DNA of 33,267 nucleotides from Bacteroidales bacterium (GTDB lineage: Bacteria; Bacteroidota; Bacteroidia; Bacteroidales; GWF2-38-335): NCBI GenBank assembly GCA_016936815.1, contig JAFGXD010000097.1:1-33267 (forward strand), in the 5' to 3' direction. The notes under the pieces were generated by a model, which saw only the letters and a list, made by a program, of their open reading frames with translations, had not been told where the DNA came from and did no database searches. Both the position numbers and the translations under genes were made by a program. Below are positions 8,566-16,284 of the stretch, piece by piece. How positions within the stretch are numbered: the first letter of the stretch is position 1; the number at the start of each line of letters is the position of its first letter.

Positions 8566-8991
8566 AATTGTTTAGTTTTCGGTTGGCGGTTCTTTTCGGC
8601 AGTTTAAAAAAACGAAAAAAAAACAAGGTATACAAATTTATCTCAACTAATTTTGATATGTCCACCGTGTTTTTCGCTTGCCAGTAATTGTCTTGAAATT
8701 TGTCGGGCAAGAGATAGCTATAAAAACGATATTGTTTTTTTCTTGCTAGTTTAATATTGTAATTTATTACGTCTTTGAGGTAATTTCTAATTTTTGAACA
8801 GTTTTTTTGTGACTATCAATCTGTCTTATTCATTGATTCCCACGGGTTAAAACCCATGGCTATGATTGGGCAACCAGTTCGTGGTTATGGGGGGATAAAT
8901 TGTTAATAGCGGTTGGCTTTTGGCTTCTAGCTGTTTGTGACCTTTCTACTCTATTTGAAAATGTTAATTTTCTTAATTGAAAGAAGGTCAT
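8566..8991. other. 426-base gap with one copy of the dispersed palindromic repeat
   Basis: No convincing gene is visible. The left part is AT-rich and contains the probable promoter of the HU/SPOR gene. Copy A of the dispersed repeat fills about 8777-8940. Short frames here have no ribosome-binding context and run through the repeat. Confidence 0.7.
8777..8940 (+). repeat. Dispersed palindromic repeat, copy A
   Basis: Core at about 8839-8897: an imperfect palindrome CCACGGGTTAAAACCCATGG, then CTATGATTGGG, then a short hairpin AACCA-GTTCG-TGGTT. A leader (GAGGTAATTTCTA, then a T-rich run ending GTGAC) is shared with copy D. A TTGGCTTTTGGCTT tail follows, as in copies B and C. It is intergenic, in the same orientation as the other copies. 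Confidence 0.8.
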
Positions 8992-9482: not shown

Positions 9483-10865
9483 TTAGTTATTTATTAATTC
9501 CTTAACAAACTTGTATTTTCTAAGCTTGAAATTTTTAAAATAGTTTCTTTCAATTTTCTTAATAGTCTTTTTTTCTAATCCAATTTCTTTAAGAGTTTGT
9601 ATAAGAGTTTCGTATCCGTGTTTATTGTTGCTTACGTTTGCATAAAGTTTTTTAATAAACTCAATCATTAGTTTTTCTCCAATTATTCTTTCAATTGCCA
9701 GTAACTGAAAAGGAGAAATGTTATATCGTTGCATTTCATGAATTTCGTCTTTATGCTTTATTTTATCTAAACGAACAAATCTAAAAGGGAATCCATTAAT
9801 TTTCTTTAGAAATGGAATATAGGAACATATTTTTATTGCTTTAAGATTGTTATATTTATTACTTAATTTTGAGGTATTTCCATCGTGTAAAAGAAATTTA
9901 AAACTAAAAAACTCGGTAATTGATTCATTTAAAAACCAATGAAGATTTGATTTTGGAACAAATAATGACCCAAAATAGTAGTGAGCAAGCTCGTGACTTG
10001 ACGCTCCGTAATTAGTAATTTTTTTGTTGTTGCGCCTGTTTACGAAAACAATTGTTGGTAAAGAAAAGAACGCAAACTCATAGGTAAGGTTTTTGTTTAT
10101 TTCTACCTTGGCATATACGGGATTAGAATTATGCTCAATACCTAGTAGTTTTTCGTAATAGGTTATTATTTTTCGGGTTTCGTTTACCAATTTTTGTTGT
10201 ACTGCACTATCAATATTTATTAGAATGATGTTTTCAATTTCTTCCCATTTGTAATCTCCTGCAATAATCATTGGTAAGCTCGAAGTTTGCTTATAATTTA
10301 CCGGAGATGGCTGCGGTTTAACATCGCCAATATTAATAAATTGGCAATCATCGCATTTTACTTGAATTGAATATTCAATCTTTTTTCTTCTTCTGCATTG
10401 GTCTATACGTTCACATGAATCTTGAATAATAACCGGATGCCAAGATGACATTCCATTTGCTCTAAAAATTGAATAATTTGTAACCAAATCAAAATCGGAT
10501 TCTACATTGTATTTGCTTGAATCGTTAGATACTTCAAATGAACCGGAGACAATAAATCTCAGACTATCGGTTTTGGATGGTATACGGTTAAGAGTTATTT
10601 TATACAGATTAACCAAATATAATTGTTCTGAACTGTCAATAATAAATGATTGTTCAATGGAATTAAGAAGTATTTTTTCCACTTCAAGATATTTGTGAAG
10701 CGTGAATTTCAATTCCTTGTTATCTGTAATAATATTTGTAATTGTAAAATCTTCAGTTAGTTTTCCTTGTTTGCTTTTAATGTCTATATGGCCGGCCATT
10801 ATATTGTTTTGTGCTAATGAAGGAAGGGTAAGAAGGAGAAGAATAAACCAAAAGATAGATTTCAT
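9483..10865 (-). CDS. Secreted M1-like (gluzincin) metalloprotease homologue
   Basis: Seen: 460 residues with a signal peptide (MKSIFWFILLLLTLPSLAQ). A zinc motif HELAH at residues 291-295 is followed after exactly 18 residues by Glu 314 in LNESITEF, matching the HExxH-x18-E arrangement of M1 aminopeptidases. Upstream, FFSLPTIVFVNRR occupies the place where M1 enzymes carry GAMEN, but the GAMEN motif itself is absent. Cysteines at DSCERIDQC and KCDDC could form disulfides. Known: M1-fold proteins without GAMEN include non-aminopeptidase members. Inference: an exported zinc protease or a diverged relative of unknown substrate. A good promoter lies upstream (10894-10925). The gene has no close partner and is flanked by repeats. 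Confidence 0.65.
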   Translation of the reverse strand: MKSIFWFILLLLTLPSLAQNNIMAGHIDIKSKQGKLTEDFTITNIITDNKELKFTLHKYLEVEKILLNSIEQSFIIDSSEQLYLVNLYKITLNRIPSKTDSLRFIVSGSFEVSNDSSKYNVESDFDLVTNYSIFRANGMSSWHPVIIQDSCERIDQCRRRKKIEYSIQVKCDDCQFINIGDVKPQPSPVNYKQTSSLPMIIAGDYKWEEIENIILINIDSAVQQKLVNETRKIITYYEKLLGIEHNSNPVYAKVEINKNLTYEFAFFSLPTIVFVNRRNNKKITNYGASSHELAHYYFGSLFVPKSNLHWFLNESITEFFSFKFLLHDGNTSKLSNKYNNLKAIKICSYIPFLKKINGFPFRFVRLDKIKHKDEIHEMQRYNISPFQLLAIERIIGEKLMIEFIKKLYANVSNNKHGYETLIQTLKEIGLEKKTIKKIERNYFKNFKLRKYKFVKELINN

Positions 10866-11001: not shown

Positions 11002-11037
11002 GAATAGTATTCTAAAATCGCTTTCTGATATTTTATT

Positions 11038-11150
11038 CCATGATTACCACGGGTTAAAACCCATAGCTATGATTGGGCAACCAGTTCGTGGTTTGGGGGG
11101 GATAAATTTTAATAGCTTTTGGCTTTTAGCTTTTAGCTGTTGGCTTGTTT
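11038..11150 (+). repeat. Dispersed palindromic repeat, copy B
   Basis: Core at about 11047-11105: CCACGGGTTAAAACCCATAG, the CTATGATTGGGCAACCAG stretch and TTCGTGGTT. The tail has TAATAGCTTTTGGCTTTTAG. Same orientation as copies A, C and D. Confidence 0.8.
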
Positions 11151-11293
11151 GAGAAGAAGTGACCTTGAGACTTTGAGACTTTAAGACTATGAGCTCATTT
11201 GGCATCGCCTCATCTCCTCATCGCAATTTCGCCCCTTCGCCCCTTCGCAATTTCGGGTTTTGTTTTTTGCCTTCGGCGTTTGTTGTTTTTTCG

Positions 11294-11410
11294 TTACCAC
11301 GGGTTAAAACCCATGGCTATGATTGGGCAACCAGTTCATGGTTAGGGGCGGATAAATTTTAAATAGCTTTTGGCTTTCAACTGCCTACTCCATAAGTATT
11401 GATTTAAAAG
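11294..11410 (+). repeat. Dispersed palindromic repeat, copy C
   Basis: Core at about 11297-11351 with CCACGGGTTAAAACCCATGG. The tail AAATAGCTTT ... CTACTCCATAAGTATTGATT (ending about 11410) is shared with copy D. It lies about 120 bases from the premature end of the radical SAM gene. Confidence 0.8.
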
Positions 11411-11531
11411 GTTGGGTTATTTTGTGGAAGAGACTTGTTTTGCCACAAATAATTTCGGCTTTTATTTCAATTATTTTGTTAATGCTTATTTCATTGCCGT
11501 TTTCTGATTGAAGTTTTTGGGGTATTACTAT

Positions 11532-12185
11532 TTAATGTCTCCGGATTTTATCATGTCTTTTTTTATCTCCGTCAATTGTTATCTGAAATTTATTGAGATT
11601 AATTTGTTTGAAACTTTCAATCATTTTTTCATCAATAAGATACCCGTTTGTAGTAATTGAATTTGCAAAGGTCTTATTATTACGAATCATTAATTCCTTC
11701 GAAAATTCTGATATTGGTTTAACAATTTCGTAATAATACATGAGCGGCTCTCCTCCAAACCAACATAAATCAAGACCTGAAATAGAATTCGTCATGTATT
11801 CGATATGTTTTAATATTTTAGATTTTGTGTCTTCTGACATATAGTCTTTCGGGTGTTCTTCATAACAATACCAACAATTGAAATTGCAATCTAATGTGGG
11901 ATGCAAAAACAATTTATATTCTGTATCTAGAAATATCGCTTTTTTGTTTTTGAATATGAGCTCCTTTAATTCGTCACGATTGGAGTCAACAATAAACCCA
12001 TATTTGTAAAATTTTTCAAACAAACTTCGATAATTTTTGCAAAAATAATCAAGATTATTTAATTTCTCGGTAACGAAAAAATAATTATTTTTATCAAACC
12101 TAACAACAGCTCCAGTTAAAGAATTGTACAAATAATAATAACCATCTTTTTCTAACGAGTAATTATATCTACTTAGTTTTTTCAT
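11532..12185 (-). CDS. Radical SAM peptide maturase, truncated before the SPASM region
   Basis: Seen: 217 residues. Residues 1-80 form an N-terminal region typical of peptide maturases (a YNSLTGAVVRFD-like strand pattern). The radical SAM cluster motif is C100-x3-C104-x2-C107 (CNFNCWYC), followed by WFGGEP (143-147), ITTNGYLID and FQITIDGDKKRHDKIR. The frame stops at RRH (TAA at 11532-11534). Known: radical SAM/SPASM maturases are normally about 350-450 residues, with two auxiliary iron-sulfur clusters in the C-terminal SPASM part, absent here. After the stop the frame stays open for about 47 codons but shows no SPASM cysteine pattern. Inference: either a broken gene, perhaps through deletion near repeat copy C, or a minimal enzyme. 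It lies downstream of a Gly-Gly peptide gene, its likely substrate. Confidence 0.75.
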   Translation of the reverse strand: MKKLSRYNYSLEKDGYYYLYNSLTGAVVRFDKNNYFFVTEKLNNLDYFCKNYRSLFEKFYKYGFIVDSNRDELKELIFKNKKAIFLDTEYKLFLHPTLDCNFNCWYCYEEHPKDYMSEDTKSKILKHIEYMTNSISGLDLCWFGGEPLMYYYEIVKPISEFSKELMIRNNKTFANSITTNGYLIDEKMIESFKQINLNKFQITIDGDKKRHDKIRRH

Positions 12186-12280
12186 ATTTTAATATTAACT
12201 CCTATTCTATTTCGTTTTGATTGAAATTATTGACAATTAGATTGGTATGTTGATAATATTTTCTTATAGTTGTCAAAATG

Positions 12281-12314
12281 AAAAGAGGCTGACTATTACA
12301 AAACAGCCTCTTTT
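12281..12314 (-). terminator. Strong hairpin between RiPP precursor and maturase genes
   Basis: AAAAGAGGCTG (12281-12291) and CAGCCTCTTTT (12304-12314) form a perfect 11-bp stem with a 12-base loop. It starts 12 bases past the precursor stop. On the minus strand the stem ends in a TTTT run followed by C. Inference: an intrinsic terminator or attenuator that favours precursor transcripts over maturase transcripts. Confidence 0.7.
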
Positions 12315-12325
12315 TACTTCAGTAG

Positions 12326-12541
12326 TTAGCAAATAGAATCTTTTGCTCCTCCACAAAGTGAATCTTTTGCTGGTTCAGTACAAACCCATTTGATTTCAAT
12401 ATTACAAAGTTTAATGGTACAATCCTTGGGACATACGACCTTTGAGGCATCTTTGCTAGAAAACCCACCATTGATTTCCATCATTTCAAATTCATTGAAG
12501 ATTTCATCAACAATTGCAATTTCATTTTTTTTGTTATCCAT
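12326..12541 (-). CDS. RiPP precursor peptide: Gly-Gly leader and six-cysteine core
   Basis: Seen: with the ATG at 12541 the peptide has 71 residues. The leader MDNKKNEIAIVDEIFNEF continues to EMMEINGG, a double-glycine site at residues 25-26. The 45-residue core holds six cysteines at 37, 41, 46, 54, 63 and 71, spaced x3, x4, x7, x8, x7; the last is the C-terminal residue. AKDSLC and AKDSIC are an internal repeat. Known: Bacteroidota RiPP precursors often have a short acidic leader ending E-M-x-x-I-x-G-G beside a radical SAM/SPASM maturase. The frame extends to an ATG at 12697, but those 52 residues do not look like a leader, so I prefer 12541. Inference: thioether or other cross-links to cysteines are plausible. 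No exporter or C39 protease gene is visible in the window. Confidence 0.75.
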   Translation of the reverse strand: MDNKKNEIAIVDEIFNEFEMMEINGGFSSKDASKVVCPKDCTIKLCNIEIKWVCTEPAKDSLCGGAKDSIC

Positions 12542-12742
12542 TTCAACAAAATTTAAGAATAAATGGGCTGCGTTTATAGTGGCGTCACTCTTATCACTTT
12601 TCAAATTTTGGTACCTGAATTTGAAGATGCAATTATAAGATAAAGTGTTTGTATATATTTTGCTTGGTTGTTTTATATGATAAATGGTCAATTTCATGAA
12701 TATGTGGTTGTTTTTTACAAATAATTGGTATTTTGATTACTT

Positions 12743-13093
12743 TCAGTAGTCTAAAACAGATTTGAAATTACATAGTTTGCGTCGGGAAATATTTATTTCC
12801 ATTCCATTAATCAATTTAACAGTTCTTTTTCTACTGGTTTGAATAGAGTCTATCTTGCTCATATTAATGATTGTATTATGATTTGCACGAATAAATCCTT
12901 GTTCAGCCAACTCAATTTCGAAATGCTTTAGCAATTTTGAAACAATAATTTCTTCATTATCAATTGAATGAATCTTTGTTATATAGCCTTCACATGATAA
13001 ATGTGTAATTATATCTAAGTCAACAAAATGCGTTTTTCCTTTTTCTTTTAAAACAAGCTTTTTGTTTTTTTGACAACTAAAATCTTTTTTCAT
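12743..13093 (-). CDS. LytTR-domain transcription regulator
   Basis: Seen: 116 residues from the ATG at 13093. The whole protein is a LytTR DNA-binding domain: DIITHLSCEGYITKIHS, LLKHFEIELAEQGFIRANHN, TIINMSKIDSI and a C-terminal INISRRKLCNF. No receiver domain is fused. Known: LytTR domains bind pairs of short direct repeats and often control bacteriocin and peptide genes. A longer frame starts at 13180, but the extra residues run through AT-rich DNA with phased GCAAAT motifs that look like operators, so I favour 13093. The precursor gene lies about 200 bases downstream on the same strand. Inference: it activates the RiPP locus, itself included. Confidence 0.8.
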   Translation of the reverse strand: MKKDFSCQKNKKLVLKEKGKTHFVDLDIITHLSCEGYITKIHSIDNEEIIVSKLLKHFEIELAEQGFIRANHNTIINMSKIDSIQTSRKRTVKLINGMEINISRRKLCNFKSVLDY

Positions 13094-13115
13094 TTTGATT
13101 AATTTTTTTAATTGT

Positions 13116-13175
13116 ATTTGCCAAGAGCAAATTTCCTGCAAATTATATTTTTTTATATTTGCATATAGTTTGCAT
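13116..13175. promoter_or_regulatory. Phased GCAAAT/TTTGCAT motifs upstream of the LytTR gene
   Basis: ATTTGC occurs at 13116-13121, GCAAAT at 13127-13132 and 13138-13143 (11-bp period), and TTTGCAT at 13158-13164 and 13169-13175 (again 11 bp). Two direct-repeat pairs in opposite orientation, one helical turn apart, suggest protein binding. Binding itself is inference. Confidence 0.4.
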
Positions 13176-13201
13176 CTCATTTTTTGTTTTTCTGGTTGGC
13201 C

Positions 13202-13323
13202 ATGTTAACAAGAACATAATCTCTTATTGTAAATAATTATTCAATTTATTGGGTGCAAGGATAGGTAAAAAACATTAATAATACAAGAAGATTTTGTAAA
13301 ATACGGGAATTGATTTAGGTAGT
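13202..13323. repeat. 122-bp duplicated block, copy 1 (upstream of the LytTR gene)
   Basis: ATGTTAACAAGAAC, TAATCTCTTATTGTAAA, ATAGGTAAAA and ATTTTGTAAAATACGGGAAT occur in the same order and spacing at 15436-15557. I counted about 24 differences in 122 ungapped positions. Each copy is followed on its right by 9-bp units. Confidence 0.85.
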
Positions 13324-13431
13324 AGTTTGTACAGTTCTTAAAGTTCTTAAAGTTCTTAAAGTTTGTAAAGTTTATCAAGTTTATCAAGTTTATCAAGTTT
13401 GTAAAGTTTATCAAGTTTATCAAGTTTGTAA
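13324..13431. repeat. 9-bp tandem repeat, 12 units
   Basis: Twelve consecutive 9-bp units in perfect phase: AGTTTGTAC, then AGTTCTTAA three times, then AGTTTGTAA and AGTTTATCA variants. The matching position of copy 2 has only four degenerate units (15558-15593). No spacers of CRISPR size. Confidence 0.9.
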
Positions 13432-13434
13432 AGT

Positions 13435-13640
13435 GAGGTAATTTCTACTTTTTGAACTGTTTTTTTTGTGACCTTGCGACCTTGCGACCTTTAGACCTTG
13501 TGGCTATTAAACTATCTTATTCACTGATTCCCGCGGGTTAAAACCCATGGCTATGATTGGGAAACCGGTTCGTGGTTATGGGTGGATGTATTTTAAATAG
13601 CTTTCAACTTCCTACTCCATAAGTATTGATTTAAAAAGTA
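13435..13640 (+). repeat. Dispersed palindromic repeat, copy D
   Basis: The leader GAGGTAATTTCTAC and T-run match copy A. The core at 13530-13588 begins CCGCGGGTTAAAACCCATGG. The tail CTACTCCATAAGTATTGATT matches copy C. It ends about 30 bases before the stop of the S41 gene. Confidence 0.8.
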
Positions 13641-13667
13641 ATAGTAGAATTATTGATTTGAAATTGT

Positions 13668-15041
13668 TCATTTTCCTTTTATTTTAATTATGTTTTCGTA
13701 AATCAATTTATCTGAAATTTCGTTTTCATTACAAAATACATCGGGTTCCAAATGAGGTTTTTTGGAACATTTTTCTCTAAATTGTTTGGTTGAAATATAG
13801 ACTGCCAATTTGCTTTCCGGTAAAACAAATGTTTTAGAGTCAATATATCCTTGTGTTTTGCCAGCAGATGTTTGACCAATTAATATCCCCCTTTTTTTAC
13901 ATTGCAATATTGAGGCAAATGAAACTGCAGATGAATAGGTTCTCCTACCAATTAATACAAATACATTTCCTTTAAACTTTTCCTTTTTTTTGCTTCTAAT
14001 AATATTGTTATTCATTGCAATCATTTTCCCGTTTTTTTTCAGTAACACTTTTCTTTTATATTTATTGAATATCCAAAAAGGACTTGAAGTGATAAGGGAT
14101 ATTTTTTTTTGGGAATTAATCAACTCACTTTTCTTCTCTGCTGTATTAATAAATGCATAATCGGCAAAATAGTAATCTTCTTTTAATAAATAGTCCAGGA
14201 AGTCAATAGCTCCATTTACTGTGCCGCCTGAATTTTGTCTAATATCAATCACTAAATTTTTTATTTTATTTTTTTCTATTTCTCTTTTCAGTTGTTGCAA
14301 AAATTCGAGCATTATATCCGAATCAATAGAGTTTTCGAAATTGACCCAAGCAATTTTTACATCTTCGACTTCCTTTATTTCCAGAGAGATATCTTTTGAA
14401 TTATGTGATTTATTCAATTGTTCTAAAGTAACAGTCAATGTGTTTACATCAATAATTTTATTGTTTTCAATATAAGAAATCTCATTAACAGGCTTGTCTC
14501 CCCATAGAATTGAATAGTAAAATTGAAAAAAGACTTCAAAATACAAATCAGATAGAATATTTGATTCAGAATTCAATAGCGGAAAAATTTCTTTTTTAAA
14601 TTGCTCAATTTCAATATTGTTGATCTTAACCAATATTTTCTTTTTAGAATTTGAGTCCTTTCCGTCTTGTGGTTTTAGAAATATAGTATCGTTTTGGAAG
14701 TAAATTTCAAATGGAAAACTGAAAGCATTTTTAAATTCTTCAAAATTTGGTAAGACTACACCCGTATGCCCATCATTTATGGAATTTAGTAATACTGTCA
14801 ATTTTCTCCAATATTCTATTCGTGTTGTCAAAGAATTACATTCCTTCTTAAGATTGTCAACAGCATTAATAAAACTCTGCTTGGGGGATTCGTCATGAAA
14901 TTTCGGATGATATTTAAAAACCAGTCCTTGCAAATGATTCAAGTCATTTGCAATTTGCGCACTATCTAAGAATACAATTTGTTGGGAAATTGCAAAAAAT
15001 GGTATGCAATTAAGAACAAATAGCATCAGTTTTTTTCGCAT
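13668..15041 (-). CDS. Exported S41-family (C-terminal-processing-like) serine peptidase
   Basis: Seen: 457 residues from the ATG at 15041, which places a signal peptide (MRKKLMLFVLNCIPFFAIS) at the N-terminus; the longer frame to 15086 adds 15 residues and is less likely. Conserved S41 features: VIDIRQNSGGTVNGAI (strand and oxyanion region), then GRRTYSSAVSFASIL with the likely catalytic serine at 370 or 371, and GILIGQTSAGKTQGY. The region before residue 250 may hold a degenerate PDZ-like part. Known: S41 peptidases cleave near hydrophobic C-termini in the periplasm. It lies on the same strand as the RiPP locus, between the HTH and LytTR genes. Processing of the peptide by this enzyme is possible but unproven, since repeat copy D and about 500 bases separate the two. 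Confidence 0.8.
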   Translation of the reverse strand: MRKKLMLFVLNCIPFFAISQQIVFLDSAQIANDLNHLQGLVFKYHPKFHDESPKQSFINAVDNLKKECNSLTTRIEYWRKLTVLLNSINDGHTGVVLPNFEEFKNAFSFPFEIYFQNDTIFLKPQDGKDSNSKKKILVKINNIEIEQFKKEIFPLLNSESNILSDLYFEVFFQFYYSILWGDKPVNEISYIENNKIIDVNTLTVTLEQLNKSHNSKDISLEIKEVEDVKIAWVNFENSIDSDIMLEFLQQLKREIEKNKIKNLVIDIRQNSGGTVNGAIDFLDYLLKEDYYFADYAFINTAEKKSELINSQKKISLITSSPFWIFNKYKRKVLLKKNGKMIAMNNNIIRSKKKEKFKGNVFVLIGRRTYSSAVSFASILQCKKRGILIGQTSAGKTQGYIDSKTFVLPESKLAVYISTKQFREKCSKKPHLEPDVFCNENEISDKLIYENIIKIKGK

Positions 15042-15161
15042 CAGTAAACGTATTTTTGTCATTTTTAGAATCTTCATAATAACCAATAATAGTTTTCTAT
15101 GGTAATTTCGTCATTTTTTAAATATCAAATAGAAAAAAAAAGCTTATTTATTCTCCAAGTA

Positions 15162-15341
15162 TTAATATACAATATTAATTTCAAATCCTGTTTGTCTAAG
15201 CCTGTTAATCATATTTCGAGCGGTTTTGTCGCAACAATTGAATTTCTTGCAAATTTGTTTTGGTGATGAAATAGAACCTCTTTCAATCTGTTCTTTTAAA
15301 TAATCAAGTCTCTCTATATAAGTAATATAATCGGGTTTCAT
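15162..15341 (-). CDS. Small helix-turn-helix protein
   Basis: Seen: 59 residues from the ATG at 15341. A start further upstream would be a TTG at 15395 inside a perfect inverted repeat, so I reject it. The sequence YIERLDYLKEQIERGSISSP followed by KQICKKFNCCDKTARNMINR is a DeoR/HTH-11-like helix-turn-helix of the kind that precedes the rest of longer regulators, here standing alone. Known: very short HTH proteins with a R-x-x-x-G-(T/S)-P-K-(Q/E) start are common near secreted-peptide loci in Bacteroidota; that recollection is not checked. Inference: a DNA-binding partner for the nearby LytTR regulator. Its upstream DNA shares the duplicated 122-bp block with the LytTR gene. Confidence 0.6.
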   Translation of the reverse strand: MKPDYITYIERLDYLKEQIERGSISSPKQICKKFNCCDKTARNMINRLRQTGFEINIVY

Positions 15342-15395: not shown

Positions 15396-15435
15396 CTGCC
15401 AATTTTTATGTCTTTTGCATTATTTCTGTTTAGCA

Positions 15436-15557
15436 ATGTTAACAAGAACCTAATCTCTTATTGTAAACAGTTATTCAATAAATCGGTGGCAAGAATAGGT
15501 AAAAAGAGTGTAAAAAGCAATAGTATTTTGTAAAATACGGGAATTAGATTAGGTATT
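15436..15557. repeat. 122-bp duplicated block, copy 2 (upstream of the HTH gene)
   Basis: Same length, order and orientation as 13202-13323, about 80% identical without gaps. Both copies lie some 95-110 bases upstream of a small regulator gene on the minus strand. Confidence 0.85.
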
Positions 15558-15593
15558 AGTTGGTATAGTTTATTAAGTTCGTAAAGTTTATAG
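15558..15593. repeat. 9-bp tandem repeat, 4 units
   Basis: AGTTGGTAT, AGTTTATTA, AGTTCGTAA, AGTTTATAG directly follow block copy 2. This is a shorter, more degenerate version of the 12-unit array at 13324-13431. Confidence 0.75.
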
Positions 15594-15600
15594 GGTTTTG

Positions 15601-15764: not shown

Positions 15765-16052
15765 TTATAGTATATTTTTCAAATCCTGCATTCCAACAAT
15801 TGCCATTATTTCAACATTATTATCATTAATTCTGTAGTATATGGTGTCCGATCCACAAGGACATCTTCTATATCCTTCTTTTAAATAATCCACAGATTCA
15901 AATGCAAATGGCCTTTCTGCAATAATTTCAAAATAATCAAAAAAAGTATTATAGTATTTGTCAGCTTGAGCAATACCAAACTTTTTGACTCCAAAATGAT
16001 GAATGCGAATCAAGTCCTCTTTGGCTGCATTACTTAGTTTATATTCAGCCAT
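15765..16052 (-). CDS. parE: ParE/RelE-superfamily toxin
   Basis: Seen: 95 residues. The pattern YKLSNAAKEDLIRIHHFGVK, then QADKYYNTFFDYFEIIAE, RPFAF, YRRCPCGSDTIYYRI and VEIMAIVGMQDLKNIL is that of ParE-like toxins. Known: ParE toxins poison DNA gyrase, and related RelE toxins cleave mRNA; the long helical pair and Y-R-x-x-x-x-G-x-x-x-I-Y-Y form favour ParE. The gene overlaps the upstream antitoxin gene by 8 bp, so the two are co-translated. It sits at the right edge of the repeat-rich accessory region, where toxin-antitoxin pairs are common. Gyrase as target is inference. Confidence 0.85.
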   Translation of the reverse strand: MAEYKLSNAAKEDLIRIHHFGVKKFGIAQADKYYNTFFDYFEIIAERPFAFESVDYLKEGYRRCPCGSDTIYYRINDNNVEIMAIVGMQDLKNIL

Positions 16053-16284
16053 TAAGTAAAGACTTTGACTGTATTAAAATTTGCTCTTTGGTATCACTTG
16101 TAAATCCACTTTTTTCGGATTTTTCCAATTTTGCTCTAATCCAGTCAATATGAGCTTGCTGTTTTCGGGCCTGTCTAATCAAATCGTTGACAAGTTCACT
16201 TTTACTTGAATATTCCTCGTTGTCTATTTGAGCTTTTAACCATTCATCATTTGGTTTTGAAAAAGAAATACTTTGTCTTGGCAT
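16045..16284 (-). CDS. parD: ParD-family antitoxin
   Basis: Seen: 79 residues. The N-terminal half MPRQSISFSKPNDEWLKAQI followed by YSSKSELVNDLIRQARKQ is a ribbon-helix-helix domain of the ParD/CopG type. The C-terminal half (about 45-79) would wrap and neutralise the toxin. Known: ParD represses its own operon by binding palindromes near the start. A fitting inverted repeat lies 17-28 bases upstream of the ATG. The gene comes first and overlaps parE, the usual order for this family. Confidence 0.85.
   Translation of the reverse strand: MPRQSISFSKPNDEWLKAQIDNEEYSSKSELVNDLIRQARKQQAHIDWIRAKLEKSEKSGFTSDTKEQILIQSKSLLNG

Follow-up and report, generated by a model that had tools for sequence, protein, structure and literature searches.

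A stretch of 33,267 nucleotides from a Bacteroidales draft genome, hereafter the window, carries a locus that is probably the remnant of a radical SAM RiPP cluster, a decayed representative of a known kind, the radical SAM Gly-Gly peptides of Bacteroidota. A precursor peptide with a double-glycine leader and six Cys residues lies here upstream of a radical SAM/SPASM peptide maturase that is represented, in the assembled sequence, by its N-terminal half. Another genome of the same genus, Bacteroidetes bacterium GWF2_38_335, encodes a full-length version of the enzyme (L022:5989-7299, 436 aa) with a 73-aa, six-Cys peptide (L022:5699-5920) immediately upstream. Downstream of the sister maturase gene come genes for a TonB-type outer-membrane barrel protein (PF14905), a C39-peptidase ABC exporter (PF03412 + PF00664 + PF00005) and a small protein that no Pfam family matches.

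The original prediction described five open reading frames on one strand, and this is confirmed, the strand being the minus strand and the order as claimed: HTH (15162..15341), S41-family peptidase (13668..15086), LytTR DNA-binding protein (12743-13180 as an open reading frame), precursor (12326..12541) and maturase (11532..12185). The precursor has 71 residues (MDNKKNEIAIVDEIFNEFEMMEINGG / FSSKDASKVVCPKDC..., also written MDNKKNEIAIVDEIFNEFEMMEINGG-FSSKDASKVVCPKDCTIKLCNIEIKWVCTEPAKDSLCGGAKDSIC), divided into a 26-residue leader (FNEFEMMEINGG) and a 45-residue core. Double-glycine leaders have hydrophobic residues at positions -12, -7 and -4 and GG at -2/-1; the window leader, read from its sequence, has F(-12), M(-7), I(-4) and GG. 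The predicted six-Cys core with spacing 3, 4, 7, 8, 7 is present, and its description as belonging to no nameable class agrees with profile searches, in which it matches no curated family. Upstream of the peptide gene, a sigma-70 scan and a search for the Bacteroidota -33/-7 promoter found nothing convincing.

The sister peptide was located by its position beside the maturase and tested for similarity afterwards. The two leaders are alike (FNEFEMMEINGG / LDDFQMMETYAG), and their alignment score is equalled by none of 2000 shuffles. The two peptides match by BLASTP with E=7e-6, as a single comparison, and when 1495 stop-to-stop ORFs, taken from the window and from other parts of its genome, are compared with the sister peptide, the window peptide is the top match. 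Similarity between the cores is not significant, their score being reached by 199 of 2000 shuffles. Sequence search alone recovered nothing convincing from 60 relatives besides the precursor's own gene. The original prediction was to be abandoned if no homologue of the peptide stood beside any radical SAM gene. The RiPP-type reading holds because the full-length maturase of the sister genome is preceded by a peptide whose Gly-Gly-type leader is homologous.

The peptide and maturase genes are also separated by a strong hairpin in both loci. In the window (12276..12320, minus strand), it consists of an 11-pair stem containing GAGGCTG, flanking pairs and a 12-nt loop, and this region 3′ of the peptide gene folds better than all 200 shuffles. 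A simple hairpin scan with a loop limit of 8 nt does not list it, given its 12-nt loop. The window and sister hairpins occupy the same place, with folding energies of -17.7 and -18.3 kcal/mol and z values of -3.4 and -3.7, respectively. They probably act as terminators or attenuators, which fits attenuated maturase expression.

The maturase was correctly recognized by kind (Pfam Radical_SAM, PF04055, E=3e-16) and by its CNFNCWYC and GGEP motifs, which supply the CX3CX2C cluster motif and the GGE motif within the radical SAM barrel, but the 217-aa product is only the N-terminal half of a family of about 440 residues. In profile searches, the open reading frame matches such families over their first ~214 positions only. 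Residues 3-217 (215 residues) are 54% identical to the sister maturase, and homology ends right at the stop codon. A model of the fragment (mean pLDDT 83) comprises an N-terminal RRE-like winged domain and barrel strands beta1-beta4. In the sister model, these are followed by beta5, beta6 and a SPASM region of poor model quality. The window protein thus lacks a complete barrel, strands 5-6 being absent together with the whole SPASM domain. The sister enzyme has the Cys residues of the SPASM auxiliary cluster, and the conserved Cys 325, 344, 385, 388, 394, 398 and 411 (L022 numbering) all fall within the missing half.

The lost half was sought in the 666 nt downstream, where a three-frame comparison with the C-terminal halves of three relatives scored no better than shuffled DNA. 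A search of the whole assembly also found none, which is weaker evidence as it had no positive control. Judging from what is known of SPASM enzymes, a protein without two barrel strands and the SPASM Cys residues would not be expected to be active. With neither search recovering the missing half, activity of the enzyme is very unlikely, and in its present state the locus therefore cannot mature its peptide. Against decay, the remaining 217 codons are open and without frameshift, which points either to a recent lesion or to continued use.

In the intact sister version, the peptide would be produced with its double-glycine-type leader, to which the RRE-like N-terminal domain of the maturase presumably binds. 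The radical SAM barrel and the SPASM auxiliary iron-sulphur clusters may then install Cys cross-links, probably thioethers, before the C39-ABC exporter cleaves after GG/AG and exports the core. The hairpin between peptide and maturase would set the dose. In the genome of the window, the C-terminal half of the maturase appears to have been lost, and as a result of this loss the peptide, if still made, would be unmodified.

The main rival to decay is a false join in the draft assembly: the real maturase would be intact and followed, as in the sister species, by outer-membrane protein and exporter genes, and the contig would have been wrongly joined near 11,530. Such a join is possible because the draft is fragmented into 192 contigs. 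A module of intergenic repeats (11014..11412, families D2, D4, D5 and D7) also begins 120 bp downstream of the broken gene. The original prediction that an exporter and a C39-domain peptidase are missing from the window is borne out, though a C39-ABC exporter, 59% identical to that of the sister genome, does exist elsewhere in the assembly. It lies with the start of a downstream gene on an isolated contig of 3.5 kb (C21, 3514 bp), which speaks for a false join. The persistence of this intact exporter is a point against decay, though the exporter may serve a peptide other than that of the window. Against a false join, no contig holds the C-terminal half, and the stop codon falls exactly where homology ends. 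Apart from weak short matches, the 120 bp between stop and repeat are unique in the assembly, so the join would not be at a long repeat. We infer that the gene is truncated in the organism itself; mis-assembly is the less likely of the two. The position of the locus is not conserved between the two genomes, as lspA, a neighbour of the window, is found on another contig in the sister genome (G001 C4) with no peptide genes nearby.

It is improbable that the five genes form a complete regulated operon of HTH, S41, LytTR, precursor and working maturase. They do share a strand and follow one another in order, and LytTR regulators are plausible for peptide loci, but the maturase is half a gene and the role of the other three as parts of the cluster is unsupported beyond adjacency. 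The LytTR protein (Pfam LytTR, 1e-14) is without a receiver domain and more likely starts at 13092 (12743..13092), since MKKDFSCQ... then resembles the MNKDHACQ... of a relative in L049. In the stretches examined, no RiPP genes adjoin its nearest relatives. The S41 protein (Pfam Peptidase_S41, 2e-19) has some precedent, as S41 peptidases adjoin related maturases in L023 and L024, but those two are less similar to it than are S41 proteins whose loci lack such genes, and no report of S41 peptidases in radical SAM RiPP clusters was found in the papers searched. The predicted HTH regulator exists as a small open reading frame, but its helix-turn-helix matches in Pfam are weak, all of them below curated cut-offs. 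Neither a LytTR nor an S41 gene was seen beside the sister cluster. Finally, a 470-bp repeat module (13169-13639) separates the LytTR-precursor-maturase block from S41 and HTH, and related repeats flank both blocks. For these reasons, S41, LytTR and HTH are counted as neighbours and not as parts of the cluster.

The surroundings of these genes have several features of their own. An intergenic repeat of about 104 bp (CGGGTTAAAACCCATGGCTATGATTGG...) occurs in four copies (8807-8910, 11014-11117, 11264-11367 and 13498-13601), and its core, allowing up to two mismatches, has 19 occurrences in the genome. Copies of a 196-bp sequence, 77% identical, lie upstream of the LytTR and HTH genes (13169-13364 and 15403-15598); its interpretation as a dispersed element was rejected, as the genome has only two full copies, both in the window. 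Between the LytTR and S41 genes, a tandem 9-bp repeat (AGTTTATCA and variants) is present in about a dozen copies (13324-13440). Upstream of the LytTR gene (13131-13173), TGCAAA/TTTGCA pairs about 11 bp apart stand on both sides of an A/T stretch and may be sites to which the LytTR protein itself binds. The window also encodes a ParE toxin / ParD antitoxin pair (15765-16284, Pfam) and a divergent M1-type metallopeptidase-like protein (9483-10865; PF01433, E=2e-8).

The least probable proposal is that the half-length protein functions, for example as an RRE carrier that binds the leader, or as a partner that another radical SAM/SPASM protein completes in trans. Its open, well-conserved frame with an RRE-like fold and the two other, distantly related radical SAM genes of the genome speak for it, but the protein has neither barrel strands 5-6 nor any auxiliary cluster ligand, and no intact-flanked relative among the loci examined has a split architecture. 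It is therefore very improbable, and a naturally halved maturase still serving this peptide, perhaps as a presenter of the leader to an enzyme completed in trans, is more so still.

Decay remains the preferred reading, and the neighbourhoods of related maturases speak for it. In other Bacteroidota, most of the loci examined pair a maturase relative with small multi-Cys peptides bearing Gly-Gly or similar leaders (L023-L027, L029-L031, L080 and L082-L084), and C39-ABC exporters adjoin in L025-L028, L030, L082 and L084. The same maturase family is also found with another core type, in which several Gly-Gly precursors in tandem show a C-x-C ... C-x-C-x-C pattern (L024:700-1340 and L031:5478-5945). 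Of 395 genomes of the class, 7 contain a match to the sister maturase at E<=1e-30. The intact relatives (L022, L025-L031 and L080-L084) represent a Bacteroidota lineage of radical SAM Gly-Gly peptides without a curated model. The window locus itself serves mainly as a caution that the presence of catalytic motifs is no proof of a working enzyme; for study, the sister locus in GWF2_38_335 would be the better choice.

Among known maturases, the top profiles for the sister enzyme are Clo7bot (TIGR04334), TIGR04463, CefB (NF038107) and PapB (NF047865), which align over nearly its full length, with E values of 1e-46 to 1e-50 for the first three. No curated NCBIfam model is matched above its cut-off; with 96-173 bits where these four require 340-600, the enzyme falls outside their families, and the precursor matches none. 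Structure comparison finds the closest solved folds in the RiPP maturases TigE (PDB 8VPO), CteB (PDB 5WGG/5WHY) and SuiB. Of PDB sequences, only the thioether-forming CteB matches the sister maturase significantly, at about 22% identity, and the window protein is without half of the CteB/TigE fold. In ranthipeptides, a Cys side chain is thioether-linked to a non-alpha carbon. For Bacteroidales, an architecture of radical SAM enzymes, Gly-Gly precursors and C39 exporters (PCAT) has already been described (PMC10352776). The window copy is unlike those clusters in its half maturase, in having no exporter nearby and in a peptide outside curated families. It resembles them in its GG-leader precursor and radical SAM/SPASM maturase and, in the sister species, in the accompanying outer-membrane protein and C39-ABC exporter.
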